Source: an uncultured Verrucomicrobiota bacterium (lineage in GTDB: Bacteria > Verrucomicrobiota > Verrucomicrobiia > Limisphaerales > UBA9464). Taken from it: DNA of 64,000 bases. The stretch is taken from contig CAIVQB010000092.1 in assembly GCA_903907925.1 (NCBI GenBank), positions 1-64,000 on the forward strand, read 5' to 3'. Shown one piece after another: positions 52,884 through 59,651 of the stretch (position 1 is its first letter; each line of letters opens with the position of its first letter). A model generated the notes under the pieces. It saw nothing but the letters and a program-made list of their open reading frames with translations. It had not been told where the DNA came from and did not search any database. A program made the position numbers and the translations under genes.

Positions 52884-53285
52884 ATGCAACTGGCCACCCA
52901 GCTCGCCCTGTTCCTCGACAACCGCCCCGGAACGCTGGCACGCGTGTGTGACGCTCTGGCCGAGGCCGGGGTGAACATCCACGCGTTCTCCACCAACGAC
53001 GCGGTCGACCACACCGTCATCCGTATGGTCGTGAGCGATCCGCGCAAAGCGATCGAAGTGTTCGAGCAACGCAACGCGCTGGTGGTGGAGAGTGAGGTCC
53101 TGATGGTTCCGGGCGATAATCGTCCCGGTTCACTAGCCGAGATCGCCCGGAAGCTGGGCGAAGCGGGCATCAACATCGACTACGCCTATTGCGCGACGTC
53201 GCCGGGCGCCCGGAACGGTCTGCTCATTCTGCGCGCCACCAATTGCAAAAAGGCGATGAAGGTGTTGAACCAGCCTGTCAAATGA
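52884..53285 (+). CDS. tandem ACT-domain protein
   Basis: 133 residues forming two ACT domains: LFLDNRPGTLARVCDALAEAGVNIHAFSTND and VPGDNRPGSLAEIARKLGEAGINIDYAYCATSPGARNGLLIL. ACT pairs bind amino acids and tune enzymes or act as free sensors. It follows gltB by 40 bp and may be co-transcribed, pointing to amino-acid sensing in nitrogen metabolism. I considered IlvN, but the sequence and length differ. Start at ATG 52884. The 3' end overlaps lolD convergently by 8 bp. Confidence 0.85.
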   Translation: MQLATQLALFLDNRPGTLARVCDALAEAGVNIHAFSTNDAVDHTVIRMVVSDPRKAIEVFEQRNALVVESEVLMVPGDNRPGSLAEIARKLGEAGINIDYAYCATSPGARNGLLILRATNCKKAMKVLNQPVK

Positions 53286-53952
53286 CCCGGCCGTCTTCCA
53301 ATTGAACGACACGCCCGGCGCGATCGGCCACCCGGGCATCGTGCGTCGCGATCACCAGCGTGGTGCCGCGTTCGGCTCGCAACGACAACAACAGCTCCAG
53401 TACTTCGGTCCCGGTCCGGGTGTCGAGATTACCGGTCGGCTCATCGGCCAGGATCAATTCCGGGTCGTTGATCAGGCAACGGGCCAGTGCCACCCGTTGC
53501 TGTTCGCCGCCGGACAACTCATACGGCCGGTGTTCCAACCGATCCCCCAGGCCCACGCGGGTCAGCAGTGATTTCGCCAGTTCACGGACCTCGTGGGCGG
53601 GCCGGCGCGCCATCCGGCCGGGCAGGGCGGTGTTCTCCACGGCATCCAGTTCGGGCAATAAATGATAGGCCTGAAAAATGAAGCCGATGCGGCGGTTGCG
53701 AAAGGTGGTGAGGCCGGATTGCGAGAGCGTCGACAGATCCGTCTCCGCTACACGGATCCGACCGGAATCGGGCCGGTCGAGTCCGCCGACCAGGTGCAGC
53801 AGGGTGCTTTTTCCAGCCCCGCTGGCGCCGCGCAGGGCGACGAATTCGCCGCGTTCAACGGTGAGGTCCACGCCCCGGAGCACTTCCAGCCGGCGTCGGC
53901 CGAGGGAGTAGGATTTGTGGACCGATTCGGCGGCGAACATCGGTTCATTCAT
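53278..53952 (-). CDS. lolD: lipoprotein-releasing ABC transporter ATP-binding protein
   Basis: 224 residues of the MacB/LolD class: LRGASGAGKSTLLHLVGGLDRPDSG (Walker A), FIFQAYHLLPELDAVENTALPGRM, YELSGGEQQRVALARCL, LILADEPTGNLDTRTG and VIATHDARVA. With the LolC/E permease just upstream in transcription (8-bp overlap) it should extract lipoproteins from the inner membrane and hand them to a carrier, which implies a Gram-negative cell envelope. Start at ATG 53952. Confidence 0.92.
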   Translation of the reverse strand: MNEPMFAAESVHKSYSLGRRRLEVLRGVDLTVERGEFVALRGASGAGKSTLLHLVGGLDRPDSGRIRVAETDLSTLSQSGLTTFRNRRIGFIFQAYHLLPELDAVENTALPGRMARRPAHEVRELAKSLLTRVGLGDRLEHRPYELSGGEQQRVALARCLINDPELILADEPTGNLDTRTGTEVLELLLSLRAERGTTLVIATHDARVADRAGRVVQLEDGRVI

Positions 53953-55240
53953 GGCGCAACGCCTCCACGGGTTGAAGCCAGGCCGCACGAATCGCCGGCA
54001 CCAGTCCGGCAATCAGGCAGCTCAGCAGAGACACGCTACAGATGATCACCACGTCCGAGGTCACGATCTGCGCCGGCAGTTCGCGGAATTGATAGATCGA
54101 CGGCGGAAACAGGTTGAACCCGGTCAGCCGGTTCATCAGTTGCAGGAATTCATTGCGATAGGCCAGGGCGACCCGGCCCAGCACGAACCCGCTGGCAACG
54201 CCCATCACGCCGACGATGAGACTTTGCGAGAGGAACAAAAACGCCACCGACATCGGACTCGCCCCCAGTGCTTTCAACATTCCGATCTCCCGAGTCTTCT
54301 GCACCACGAAGGTGATCAGTGCGCTCATGATGCCGAACGCGGCGACGATCACGATGAAGAAGAGGATGAAGAACATCACCGTCTTCTCGGTGGCCAGCGC
54401 GTTGAGAAAATCGCGGCTCTCCTGGAGCCAGGTGACGACGTTGAACGCCGGTCCGAGCCGGGTTTGCAGGTTGCGCTGCATCGCCTCCGTTCCAGCCATG
54501 TCGGGGTTCTTCAACATCACCTTGAGACCCTGCACGCCCTCCGATTGCCCGCCCAAATCCTGGGCATCGGCGAGTGAGGCGATGATCAAATTGGCGTTCA
54601 GATCGTTCAGCCCGAAATCCGCCAGGCCCCGCACCCGGTAGTCCTCGGCCAGCATCAACTCTTCCGGCTCGCGCTTGCCGGCTTTCCGCGCCTGGTCATG
54701 GGCCGATTTCAACCGGGAAAAGGCCGCCGGGGAATAGACCGCTATGCGATCTCCGACCCGGATGCCCCGGTTGTCGGCGAGGGCATAGCCGACGATTACC
54801 GACTTCGGGGTCAGGCGTCCGTCGCCTTCGACGATGCGGTTGGTGAAGGAGGCGGTCCGGTTTTCCAGCACCGGATCAATTCCGCGGATGATGGTGCCGA
54901 ATGTCGTCGGATTGCTGCCGGCCGATTCCGTCTCGATCAGCACCGGAACGTCGATGTACGGCGAAACGCCGCGCACCCGGGAGTCGGTGGAAATGCGTTG
55001 CATCAACGTCCTCCAGTCGGCGATCGGCCGGCCCCGTTGCTCGATGCGCAGATGGGCGCTGAATCCGATCAATTGATCGCGGAGCTGCCGGTCGAATCCG
55101 GTCATCACTGAAATGACGATGATCAGGACGGCGACCCCGAGCATCACCCCGGCGATGCAGATCAGGGTGATGATCGAGACGAACGTCCGTTTGGGCCGGA
55201 GGTACCGCAGGGCCAGGGCCAGTTCGAAGGGGAGAGGCAT
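53945..55240 (-). CDS. lipoprotein-releasing ABC transporter permease (LolC/LolE family)
   Basis: 431 residues with the family layout: a first helix (TFVSIITLICIAGVMLGVAVLIIVISVMTGFDRQLRDQLIG), a large periplasmic domain (~50-270) and three C-terminal helices (FFILFFIVIVAAFGIMSALITFVVQKTREIGMLKALGAS, then PVEALRHE at the end). Single LolF-type permeases serve for both LolC and LolE in many bacteria; only one copy is seen here. Forms a unit with lolD, and two genes of unknown role stand before it. Confidence 0.9.
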   Translation of the reverse strand: MPLPFELALALRYLRPKRTFVSIITLICIAGVMLGVAVLIIVISVMTGFDRQLRDQLIGFSAHLRIEQRGRPIADWRTLMQRISTDSRVRGVSPYIDVPVLIETESAGSNPTTFGTIIRGIDPVLENRTASFTNRIVEGDGRLTPKSVIVGYALADNRGIRVGDRIAVYSPAAFSRLKSAHDQARKAGKREPEELMLAEDYRVRGLADFGLNDLNANLIIASLADAQDLGGQSEGVQGLKVMLKNPDMAGTEAMQRNLQTRLGPAFNVVTWLQESRDFLNALATEKTVMFFILFFIVIVAAFGIMSALITFVVQKTREIGMLKALGASPMSVAFLFLSQSLIVGVMGVASGFVLGRVALAYRNEFLQLMNRLTGFNLFPPSIYQFRELPAQIVTSDVVIICSVSLLSCLIAGLVPAIRAAWLQPVEALRHE

Positions 55241-55274
55241 GTCGACGCGCGGACGCTACCGGCGGGCGGCACGA

Positions 55275-55892
55275 TTACAAGAGTGCTGCGATCTGCGCCG
55301 AAGCACTCCGCTCGAGGGGATTCCCGTGCGCGAAGAGCGCGCGATCGAACCGTCGTTGAACCAATCCGCGCAACGACTGCCGCAGACGTGCCGGGTCGGT
55401 GCAATAGCGATCCGGCAGGATCTCCAGACCGCGTCCGGTGAGGTTCACCACGGCATCTCCGAACACCGCCAGTGACAACTCCGGACAAAACCACGCTGCC
55501 TCGCCGCCGGGCAGGGGAACGATCTCCCAACCGGTGATGGGGCAAACGGGTCGCGGACCGGATTCCCAGCGTTGAAGATATGGCAGATGGAGATTGGCGT
55601 CAGGTGAAGCCCATGCAGGAACCGGAAACAACGACTGCCATCGGACGAGATCGCGTTCGTGATTCTCGTTGGTCAGGACGAAGGCGGTCGGCGCACCGCG
55701 TGGGGGAAACCAATCCCAGATCGGCGCGGCCAATGGAATTGGATCGAACACGATTCCAGTATCGCCGATCCCCACCGCGTGCGAGGTCAATTCAACCTTG
55801 TGGGCCGGCGAATAGACCGACCAACGGAGGACGCCCGGGAACACCGTTTCGACCGAGGTGGCCACCGCTGATGAAACCGGTTCCACGGTCAT
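55275..55892 (-). CDS. metallo-beta-lactamase-fold-like protein, metal motif degenerate
   Basis: About 205 residues. Strand-turn segments resemble MBL-fold hydrolases (YSPAHKVELTSHAVGIGDTGIVFDPIP, AFVLTNENHERD, GEAAWFCPELSLAVFGDAVVN, RALFAHGNPL). The canonical HxHxDH is replaced by NENHERD, and the other ligands are partly gone, so it may not be a metal hydrolase. It starts at ATG 55892 inside the stop of the ferritin-like gene (ATGA) and ends 34 bp before the LolC/E gene. Confidence 0.65.
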   Translation of the reverse strand: MTVEPVSSAVATSVETVFPGVLRWSVYSPAHKVELTSHAVGIGDTGIVFDPIPLAAPIWDWFPPRGAPTAFVLTNENHERDLVRWQSLFPVPAWASPDANLHLPYLQRWESGPRPVCPITGWEIVPLPGGEAAWFCPELSLAVFGDAVVNLTGRGLEILPDRYCTDPARLRQSLRGLVQRRFDRALFAHGNPLERSASAQIAALL

Positions 55893-57349
55893 GCGGAAGC
55901 GGAGATGTCCTTTAAATCGGCACGAATGCTCTGGTAACTGGTCGAAAAGGCGAGCGCCGCCGGATCCGCGGTCACACCGTTGGCATCGCAATACTGTTGA
56001 TAGGTGGCGGGCCACCAGTTGTCGTGGCGGGTGAGCCCTTTCGCGCGCCACTCCTCCCAACCCATCAACACCTTGCTCCAGCAACGATCCCCATATGCTA
56101 CCGCCTCGTGGGCGCTGGGCATCTGGCTCACAAACCAGTCCCGGCCGACCCGCGCATGCAGAACTTCATCGGCCCAATCAAAATCCTGGAAGGTCGCGGC
56201 GAGCGGATTCTTCGAACGCACGCCGACCTCCCATTCATGACGCTTGCCGGTCCTGGGCATCAGACCCTGCTCAATGAAATAGAGAACGGCATGCCGCTCG
56301 ATCGGGGTCAGTTGGGTGTTCAGACCCAGCGACCAGGTGAAGTTGACCCGCACCTTCGACGGCCAGTCGACGCCGACCGCGGCGAATCCGACTTCGCCCA
56401 TCATCGCGTGACGCGCCTCGTCCCAGAGTTGGCGGGTCATGTCGCGGTAGTAGCCCCAGGGTTTGTCCGGGGTTTCGGCGAGAATGCTGGCCATCATCTC
56501 CGGCACATCGATTTCGCGAAGACGTTTGTAGAACATCATCATCACCTTCCCATCAAGCGGGAGCGTGGAGTCGTAGAGGAACACCTCGGCGTTGACCCCC
56601 ATATTGTACGGATCGGGAAACCGTTCATCGCGCCGGGGAATGCCGTCGAACTGGAACGGCTTGGCCGAATGCAACGGCGCAGGAATCGGCCCGGAAACCG
56701 GCGAGCAACCGTCCAAACCACCGGCCGCGCCGAGTGCCGCGCGCAACACCGCGAGCCCTGGCAGCGCCAACCGGCGATCCTCGGGCAACACGGTGCAACT
56801 CACGGCGCGGAGTCCGTAGGCGAGCATGTCGTCGAGATCGATTCGAGCAAACCGGATCAGTCGTCGGGTGGGTTGATCGGCCAGGAGATGGGCGTCGTCG
56901 TGGTGGCGATCCAGCGCATCGCGCACTGCCGGCAGGGCGACTTCGTACAGGCCGAGCAACAAGGAGGCGGTGGTCGGTGCGGCCAGGAGCTCGTCGAAAA
57001 ACCGTTCCAAGGCCGGATGCGGGACCTTTTCCAGGCCGAGTGGAGGTTCGCGCATTTCACCGACCCGCGAGCGCAACGCGGTCACCTGTTCGGCGCAGAG
57101 ATGCGCGTGATAGCTGAAGGCCATCTTCAATTCGTACACCGGTTCCGCGGTAATGTGGGTGATGAAGATTTGGTGAAGCCGGCGCAGGGCGTAGTGATGA
57201 ATCTTGAGACGGCGAACACTCTCCTCGACCGACAAGCCTGGACGGGCGGCTTCGGTGAATCCTCCGAGTCCGGCAAGAGGTGGCAGGCCCTGATGCGTGC
57301 GATAGGCGGCCAACCGGCCCTCGGTGGCGGCAGTGGAAGCGGCATTCAT
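55889..57349 (-). CDS. large ferritin-like (putative diiron) protein of unknown function
   Basis: 486 residues, mostly helical. Two ExxH motifs occur in the second half (LWDEARHAMMGEVGF, ~317, and WADEVLHARVGRDW, ~413). The first half has helices with Glu/His (VYELKMAFSYHAHLCAEQVTALRSRV). This is what a ferritin-like four-helix iron or diiron site would need, but the length is far above ferritin or rubrerythrin. I cannot assign a named family with certainty. It is coupled to the MBL-like gene by ATGA overlap and stands first in the unit that ends with the lol genes. Confidence 0.6.
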   Translation of the reverse strand: MNAASTAATEGRLAAYRTHQGLPPLAGLGGFTEAARPGLSVEESVRRLKIHHYALRRLHQIFITHITAEPVYELKMAFSYHAHLCAEQVTALRSRVGEMREPPLGLEKVPHPALERFFDELLAAPTTASLLLGLYEVALPAVRDALDRHHDDAHLLADQPTRRLIRFARIDLDDMLAYGLRAVSCTVLPEDRRLALPGLAVLRAALGAAGGLDGCSPVSGPIPAPLHSAKPFQFDGIPRRDERFPDPYNMGVNAEVFLYDSTLPLDGKVMMMFYKRLREIDVPEMMASILAETPDKPWGYYRDMTRQLWDEARHAMMGEVGFAAVGVDWPSKVRVNFTWSLGLNTQLTPIERHAVLYFIEQGLMPRTGKRHEWEVGVRSKNPLAATFQDFDWADEVLHARVGRDWFVSQMPSAHEAVAYGDRCWSKVLMGWEEWRAKGLTRHDNWWPATYQQYCDANGVTADPAALAFSTSYQSIRADLKDISASA

Positions 57350-57608
57350 GCGGCCTTGGTGGTAGCGTTTTCCAGCCGCGTCGACAAATCCGGAGGTGAC
57401 GTCTCTGCCCAGCTCAACGGTCGATCGTCGGAGTGGGAATGGATGGGGCTCCCCGAACCCCGTGAAAGCAGGACTCCGGCGCCACCCACGGAACGCGCCT
57501 TCCTCTTCAACTCTTCAACTCCTCAACAGTTCGACCTTCCGGCTCCTTCCGTGAAATCAGTGTCTCCCCCTCTTTCAATTCGCCGGCCGGCTCTTATCCT
57601 TGACCGAC

Positions 57609-59651
57609 ATGTCGGCGTTTGAACTCGTCTCCAACTATGCCCCGGCGGGCGACCAGCCCGGAGCCATCGTCCGGCTGACCGACGGACTGAAGCGCGGCGA
57701 GCCGCACCAGGTGCTGCTGGGCGTAACCGGTTCGGGGAAGACCTTCACCATCGCCAACGTCATCCGGAACGTGAACCGGCCGACGCTGGTGTTGTCCCAC
57801 AACAAGACCCTGGCTGCGCAGCTCTACGCCGAGTTCAAGGCCTTCTTCCCGCGCAACGCGGTCGAATACTTCGTCAGCTACTTCGATTTTTACCAGCCCG
57901 AGGCCTACATTCCCCGGACGGACACCTTCATCGAGAAGGACAGCAGCGTGAACGACGAGATCGAACGCCTGCGCCTCTCGACGATGAATTCGCTGTTGAG
58001 CCGGCGCGATGTGATCGTGGTGGCCAGCGTCTCCTGCATTTACGGCATCGGCAGCAAAGACGACTACGAGAGCATGGTGATCCCGCTCCGGGTCGGACAG
58101 GCCATCGCCCGCAACACACTCCTCGAAAAACTGGTGGCGCTGCAGTATGCGCGAAACGATTTCGATCTCACCCGCAGCAAATTCCGGGTGCGGGGCGATG
58201 TGGTGGAATTGCACCCGGCCTACACCGAGGACGCCCTGCGCATCGAGTTCTTCGGCGATGAAATCGAACGCTTCACGCGATTCGATCCTCTGACCGGCGA
58301 GGCCCTCGAATCGCTGCAGGCGGTGAACATTTTTCCGAGCAAGCAATTTGCCACGCCGCAGGAGAAGGTCAATCGGGCTCAGCTTTCCATTCGCGAGGAA
58401 CTCGGGAACCGGATCGCGGAATTCGAGCGTCAGGGCAAACTCCTCGAAGCGCAGCGGATCAAGATGCGGACGGAGTACGATCTGGAGCAGCTTCAGGAAT
58501 TGGGATTCTGCTCCGGCATCGAGAATTATTCCCGGCACATCGCCGCGCGGCCGGCGGGGTCGCGACCCGGGGTGTTGATCGACTTTTTCCCCGACGATTT
58601 CCTGATGGTGATCGATGAATCGCACGCCACGTTGCCGCAGATCGGCGGCATGCACGCCGGCGACCTGGCCCGAAAAGGCGTTCTCGTGGAACACGGATTC
58701 CGCCTGCCCAGCGCGTTGGATAACCGGCCTTTGAGTTTCGCGGAGTTTCGCGAGCTGACCGGCCAGGGCATCTACGTGAGCGCGACACCGGGGCCGACGG
58801 AAATGGAATGGGCCGGATCACGGAATGTGGCCGAACAGATTGTCCGCCCGACCGGACTGGTCGATCCGACGGTTGTCCTGCGCCCGTTGACCGGGCAGAT
58901 CGACGATTTGCTGAACGAATGCCGGGACCGGGTGGATCATGGCCAACGGGTGCTGGTGACCACCCTCACCAAGCGCACCGCGGAGGAACTCACCGACTAC
59001 CTGCGCGATCTTGGGGTGAACGTTCGCTATCTCCACAGCGAGATCGACGCCATCGAACGGGTGGAAATCCTCAGGGCCCTGCGCAAGGGCGATTGCGACG
59101 TGCTGGTCGGCATCAATCTGTTGCGGGAAGGTCTCGATCTGCCCGAAGTCTCGCTGGTGGCCATCCTGGATGCCGACAAGGAGGGCTATCTCCGCAGCGC
59201 CACCAGCCTGATTCAGACGGCGGGCCGGGCCGCACGACATTTGGACGGAAAGGTGATCCTCTATTGCGATGTCCGGACCCAGAGCATCCAGAAATTCCTC
59301 GCGGTCACCGAATACCGTCGCGGCCGCCAGCTCGCCTACAACGCCGCGAACGGGATCGTTCCGCGCAGCGTCACCCGTGGGATTGAAGAGGGGTTGAGCA
59401 GTTCGCCCGCGGGTCGGGCAGCCGTTTCCGGTGCGTTGCGTGAGACGATGGAGCAGTTCGACGTCACGGAAACCTTGCGGGAATTGGAGTCGGAGATGAT
59501 CGAAGCCGCCCAGGCATTGCAGTTTGAAAAGGCAGCATTGTTGCGCGATCAAATCCGCGAATTAAAGGTGCGGACGGGGATCGCGGGGCCTGAGCTTTCC
59601 AAGAAGCCCGGAAGCGGCGGCCGCCGCGCGGGACGCGCGCGCCGACGGTGA
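57609..59651 (+). CDS. uvrB: UvrABC excision nuclease subunit B
   Basis: Damage-verifying helicase-like subunit of nucleotide excision repair. 680 residues with FELVSNYAPAGDQPGAI, Walker A LLGVTGSGKTFT, the beta-hairpin YFVSYFDFYQPEAYIPRTDTFIEKD, DEXX-type MVIDESHATLPQ, VLVTTLTKRTAEELTDYL, INLLREGLDLPEVSLVAILDADKEG and a C-terminal UVR motif (MIEAAQALQFEKAALLRDQI). A Gly/Arg-rich tail ends it. Start at ATG 57609; TTG 57600 is less likely. uvrA and uvrC are not near. Confidence 0.96.
   Translation: MSAFELVSNYAPAGDQPGAIVRLTDGLKRGEPHQVLLGVTGSGKTFTIANVIRNVNRPTLVLSHNKTLAAQLYAEFKAFFPRNAVEYFVSYFDFYQPEAYIPRTDTFIEKDSSVNDEIERLRLSTMNSLLSRRDVIVVASVSCIYGIGSKDDYESMVIPLRVGQAIARNTLLEKLVALQYARNDFDLTRSKFRVRGDVVELHPAYTEDALRIEFFGDEIERFTRFDPLTGEALESLQAVNIFPSKQFATPQEKVNRAQLSIREELGNRIAEFERQGKLLEAQRIKMRTEYDLEQLQELGFCSGIENYSRHIAARPAGSRPGVLIDFFPDDFLMVIDESHATLPQIGGMHAGDLARKGVLVEHGFRLPSALDNRPLSFAEFRELTGQGIYVSATPGPTEMEWAGSRNVAEQIVRPTGLVDPTVVLRPLTGQIDDLLNECRDRVDHGQRVLVTTLTKRTAEELTDYLRDLGVNVRYLHSEIDAIERVEILRALRKGDCDVLVGINLLREGLDLPEVSLVAILDADKEGYLRSATSLIQTAGRAARHLDGKVILYCDVRTQSIQKFLAVTEYRRGRQLAYNAANGIVPRSVTRGIEEGLSSSPAGRAAVSGALRETMEQFDVTETLRELESEMIEAAQALQFEKAALLRDQIRELKVRTGIAGPELSKKPGSGGRRAGRARRR

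Follow-up and report, generated by a model that had tools for sequence, protein, structure and literature searches.

Background

A glutamate combined with an ExxH motif is a pattern common to ferritins and rubrerythrins, and a more particular form of the motif, D-E-x-R-H, also occurs in R2 and in bacterial multicomponent monooxygenases. The DEXRH form is present in acyl-ACP desaturases as well (PMC6923433). Heme-oxygenase-like dimetal oxidases (HDOs) have a different ligand set, made of three histidines and three carboxylates, with the signature HX3EX2H on core helix 3 (PMC11611611). Our search of the literature on DUF455 (PF04305) returned neither a function nor a characterised member of the family. 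Here we describe two overlapping genes, P1 and P2, in a stretch of 64,000 nucleotides (the window). P1 lies at the edge of DUF455, as judged from profile matches, and probably encodes a soluble dimetal carboxylate oxidase or oxygenase of small-molecule metabolism, with iron as the most likely metal, which came to lie before P2 and the lolCD genes by rearrangement.

Organization of the locus

The minus strand carries P1, P2, lolC and lolD in this order, and uvrB is divergent and upstream of P1 (Table 1). The initial annotation had reported a 486-residue protein whose gene overlaps that of a smaller protein by ATGA, with both genes preceding the Lol lipoprotein-export genes in one direction, and all of this was recovered in our gene calls. 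A 541-amino-acid open frame runs antisense to P1 (55997-57622, plus strand); we rejected it as a real gene and consider it a shadow of the high-GC coding sequence. P1 is conserved at the protein level, with at least 217 relatives detected in our search of the genome collection, which shows that coding is on the minus strand. P1 and P2 are therefore correctly described and are not chance reading frames.

Table 1. Features of the P1-P2 locus (positions within the window)
Feature	Position	Strand	Description
uvrB	57600..59651	+	Divergent from P1; Pfam UvrB domains
P1 gene	55889..57349	-	ATG start; 486 aa; two-bundle ferritin-like protein, distant DUF455 relative
P1 N-terminal helical bundle	56714..57244	-	Residues 36-212, from secondary structure of the model; lacks ExxH and presumably binds no metal
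Predicted dimetal-site region of P1	56156..56515	-	E279 ... D310-E311-x-R313-H314 ... E360 ... D394-E395-x-x-H398
ATGA overlap, P1 stop and P2 start	55889..55892	-	4 bp; possible translational coupling
P2 gene	55275..55892	-	ATG start; 205 aa; degenerate metallo-beta-lactamase-fold protein
P2 site of the HxHxDH motif	55653..55673	-	Reads TNENHER (T74-R80); alignment of 31 homologues
lolC/lolE-type permease	53945..55240	-	Directly downstream of P2; Pfam FtsX, MacB_PCD
lolD-type ABC ATPase	53278..53952	-	Pfam ABC_tran

Conservation and family of P1

Orthologues of P1 are found across Verrucomicrobiota with 57-80% identity. Around 85 residues are invariant among them, including many arginines, tryptophans and tyrosines. 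Besides the 96 related genomes, in which orthologues were called at E < 1e-60, a phylum-wide sample of 289 genomes added orthologues in 13 further genomes. In Planctomycetota they are rare and sporadic (57-60% identity; loci L059, L072, L074, L075 and L078), which suggests horizontal transfer. Several genomes of one Verrucomicrobiota family encode two to five members each, mostly divergent paralogues (G272, G284, G060, G122, G018, G091 and G088; loci L095-L110 and L194-L203), and in these multi-copy genomes the paralogues often adjoin PhyH, Gfo/Idh/MocA or transport genes.

The only Pfam match of P1 is to DUF455, at 15.3 bits against a curated cut-off of 34.3, which leaves it outside the family as Pfam delimits it. 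The same weak match recurs in 55 of 60 orthologues, with a best E-value of 5.9e-6, and some paralogues, around 25-30% identical to P1, score above the cut-off, at 53 and 51.9 bits. It is the C-terminal bundle of P1 that aligns with DUF455, over positions 80-202 of the domain, but P1 has in addition an N-terminal bundle and a C-terminal extension. Separately from P1, a true DUF455 protein is encoded in the window genome (G000:C73:16858-17520, locus L212; 162 bits). Neither P1 nor P2 had a useful match in NCBIfam or PHROGs. Sequence searches of the PDB with P1 or its profile returned only designed or repetitive proteins, at chance level, and no significant similarity to any solved ferritin-like diiron enzyme.

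Predicted structure and candidate dimetal site

The AlphaFold2 model of P1, built from 60 sequences, is confident (pLDDT 93.5, pTM 0.93) and consists of two helical bundles, the first of which spans residues about 41-186. Conserved residues of the N-terminal bundle are E73, K75, R95 and E98, as seen in the orthologue and paralogue alignments. No similarity between the N-terminal bundle and the C-terminal one (residues about 265-405) was detectable with hhalign, and hence no sign of duplication.

The two ExxH motifs that had been pointed out in this helical protein are E311-A-R-H314 and E395-V-L-H398, and both are invariant. Indeed, the whole set composed of E279, D310-E311-x-R-H314, E360 and D394-E395-x-x-H398 is invariant in 81 orthologues, and its nine residues, R313 included, are equally invariant in 14 paralogues that share 24-38% identity. 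This persistence in divergent paralogues is the strongest evidence that the residues of the site are functional. The spacing is E-X31-E-x-x-H in the first half of the site and E-X34-E-x-x-H in the second, with an aspartate preceding the glutamate of each ExxH. In the model, E279, E311 with H314, E360, and E395 with H398 fall on four successive helices of the C-terminal bundle, so that each of two helix pairs presents a glutamate and an ExxH motif, as in ferritin-like proteins. This is the classical ligand pattern, and the alignments and the predicted structure together support the view that P1 looks like a diiron-carboxylate enzyme.

Fold searches placed P1 less sharply. With the whole model, Dps, YciF and ferritin-like chains were matched over approximately one bundle, with probability 1.0 and E-values around 0.1 or worse. 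When the C-terminal bundle was modelled alone (pLDDT 87.9), TenA, PqqC, AetD and FlcD came first, followed by R2, R2-like oxidase and PaaA, all with weak E-values. None of the PDB fold searches with the P1 models returned a match at E <= 0.001.

Genomic neighbourhoods of P1

We clustered the open reading frames around the P1 loci after removing the shadow frames that overlap P1. A divergent AraC-type regulator with a cupin-like sensor lies next to P1 in 12 diverse loci. P1 may also stand alone, and genes downstream of it or nearby encode zinc alcohol dehydrogenases (L034 and L077), short-chain dehydrogenases (SDR; L081 and relatives), a PhyH oxygenase (L206), or an ABM protein together with an iron alcohol dehydrogenase (L181). 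No universal neighbour was found in the clustered neighbourhoods, and since the neighbours differ between genomes, they do not indicate a single pathway. Taken as a whole, they favour a role in oxidative small-molecule catabolism. Divergent paralogues adjoin PhyH, Gfo/Idh/MocA and transport genes; a pathway based on these neighbours, sugar transport among them, was considered and rejected, as they are too varied to name a substrate.

Occurrence of P1 and P2

To be a meaningful system, as the initial annotation had suggested, P1 and P2 would be expected to occur together and to stay adjacent. Among the 96 related genomes, P1 is present in 64 and P2 in 32, and both are found in 24, compared to 21.3 expected if the two were independent. 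P1 occurs without P2 in 40 genomes and P2 without P1 in eight, one of which (G345) is uncertain, as it is half-complete and contains a P1-like fragment. The two genes are adjacent in three genomes only, namely the window genome, G295 (L002) and G294 (L044). In a tree of P1 these three group as a single clade (support 0.966). In G293, which belongs to the same genus, they are 20 kb apart and on opposite strands. The pair is therefore not conserved as a neighbourhood, an outcome that the initial annotation itself had named as a refutation, and its co-occurrence is at chance level. The three genomes with adjacent genes all retain a 4-bp overlap, as ATGA in the window and as GTGA in the other two. 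This makes co-translation likely within the clade and does not show a shared function. The arrangement is best read as a local rearrangement through which P1 came to lie, once, before an existing P2-lolC-lolD operon.

Proposed function of P1

An oxidation or hydroxylation step is naturally suggested by the ligand pattern of P1, and the dehydrogenase and PhyH neighbours in other genomes agree with it. The oxygenase chemistry is read from the ligand pattern because our search found no relative with a known reaction. The diiron character first proposed for P1 is supported by its invariant Glu and His residues on four successive helices of one bundle, whereas the idea of an oxidation carried out with an MBL-like partner is not supported, as the pair is not conserved.

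As to the superfamily of P1, the fold search itself points both ways. P1 could be an HDO rather than a ferritin-like protein, since the best matches of the lone C-terminal bundle are TenA, PqqC, AetD and FlcD, and the positions of its ExxH, E and (D)xxxExxH elements resemble the layout of AetD (PMC11611611). However, P1 does not have the third histidine of HX3EX2H. Asp391 takes that position, which leaves two histidines and at least four carboxylates, as in ferritin-like proteins, versus three and three in HDOs (PMC11611611). This ligand set favours the ferritin-like side, the affinity to DUF455 also argues against an HDO, and we regard the HDO assignment as decidedly improbable. The likeness to the ferritin-like diiron enzymes (R2, R2-like oxidase, acyl-ACP desaturase and PaaA) lies in the succession of E, DExRH, E and DExxH on successive helices, and R2, R2-like oxidase and PaaA are also weak fold matches of the C-terminal bundle. 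P1 differs from them in that Leu replaces Arg in its second motif, and in that two bundles are joined in one chain.

P1 may also bind two metals and yet not oxidise an organic substrate, serving instead to store iron, as a rubrerythrin-like peroxidase or as a stress protein similar to manganese catalase. Dps, YciF and ferritin chains do rank first in the search with the whole protein, and P1 shares the E and ExxH pattern of ferritins and rubrerythrins. We nevertheless find this explanation unlikely. The large size of P1, its second bundle and its many invariant Arg, Trp and Tyr residues suggest a pocket for a specific substrate, the motif takes the D-E-x-R-H form seen in desaturases, R2 and monooxygenases, and the neighbouring genes include a metabolic regulator and dehydrogenases. 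The least probable of the alternatives, and one that we give very little weight, is that the two proteins work together as a pair, in which the diiron enzyme oxidises a substrate and the MBL-like protein processes it, perhaps during lipoprotein or envelope maturation. The start-stop overlap kept in three genomes and the common direction, in an apparent operon with lolCD, are in line with it. It is largely refuted by the distribution of the two genes, with chance co-occurrence, 40 genomes having only P1 and eight only P2, and adjacency confined to one clade; in addition, P2 has lost most of the metal ligands of the MBL family.

According to the oxidase or oxygenase reading that we prefer, two metal ions would be held in the C-terminal bundle by E279, E311, H314, E360, E395 and H398, and this site would activate O2. 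P1 would then oxidise a small organic substrate, most likely through hydroxylation or dehydrogenation, with the N-terminal bundle acting as a scaffold or as part of the substrate pocket, and dehydrogenases may take the product further. In most genomes P1 would act alone or in small catabolic neighbourhoods with an AraC-type regulator and dehydrogenases. It would have moved before the P2-lolC-lolD operon in the common ancestor of the window genome and its two relatives, with no functional partnership, and the real association of P2 would be with the Lol lipoprotein-release genes. We also put forward, tentatively and as a rather doubtful extension, that P1 is the founding member of a family of two-bundle diiron oxygenases, uncharacterised and expanded in Verrucomicrobiota, and that this family oxidises a sugar-like or other catabolic substrate new to diiron enzymes. 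P1 keeps around 60% identity across the phylum and has the complete signature of a dimetal site but no assigned reaction, which makes it well suited to enzyme discovery in Verrucomicrobiota. Since the adjacency to P2 is local, it should not be used for guessing the substrate of P1.

P2 and the Lol genes

P2 had been described as a small MBL-fold-like protein with a replaced metal motif, and our comparisons agree. It is similar to the solved MBL-like protein 2p97 (phmmer E = 4.9e-9, residues 19-179 aligned), which places it in the MBL fold, and has a weak match to Lactamase_B_5, below the cut-off. In its 31 aligned homologues, the HxHxDH motif is replaced by a conserved T-N-x-N-H-x-R, in which N75, N77, H78 and R80 are shared by at least 30 of the 31. 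Gly stands in for the His of the third motif, and D50, D146 and H189 are retained. P2 thus departs from the catalytic MBL proteins, in which HxHxDH is accompanied by further His and Asp ligands. The alignment indicates that P2 is a conserved, non-canonical MBL-fold protein rather than a decaying one. The Lactamase_B_5-type 2p97 shares with it the degenerate TNxxHxR in place of HxHxDH; P2, for its part, shows a link to lolCD within its family.

The genes conserved next to P2 are lolC and lolD, and not P1. P2 immediately precedes lolC at 14 of 30 P2 loci, with some of the remaining loci ending at contig ends. It is possible that P2 is an unrecognised accessory of lipoprotein release, and its link to lolCD makes this neighbourhood of a degenerate MBL protein worth following. 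In the bacterial family of the window genome, the P2-lolC-lolD cluster has P2 as its conserved first gene (53278-55892 in the window; also L114, L115, L117, L118, L124-L127, L130, L135 and L140).
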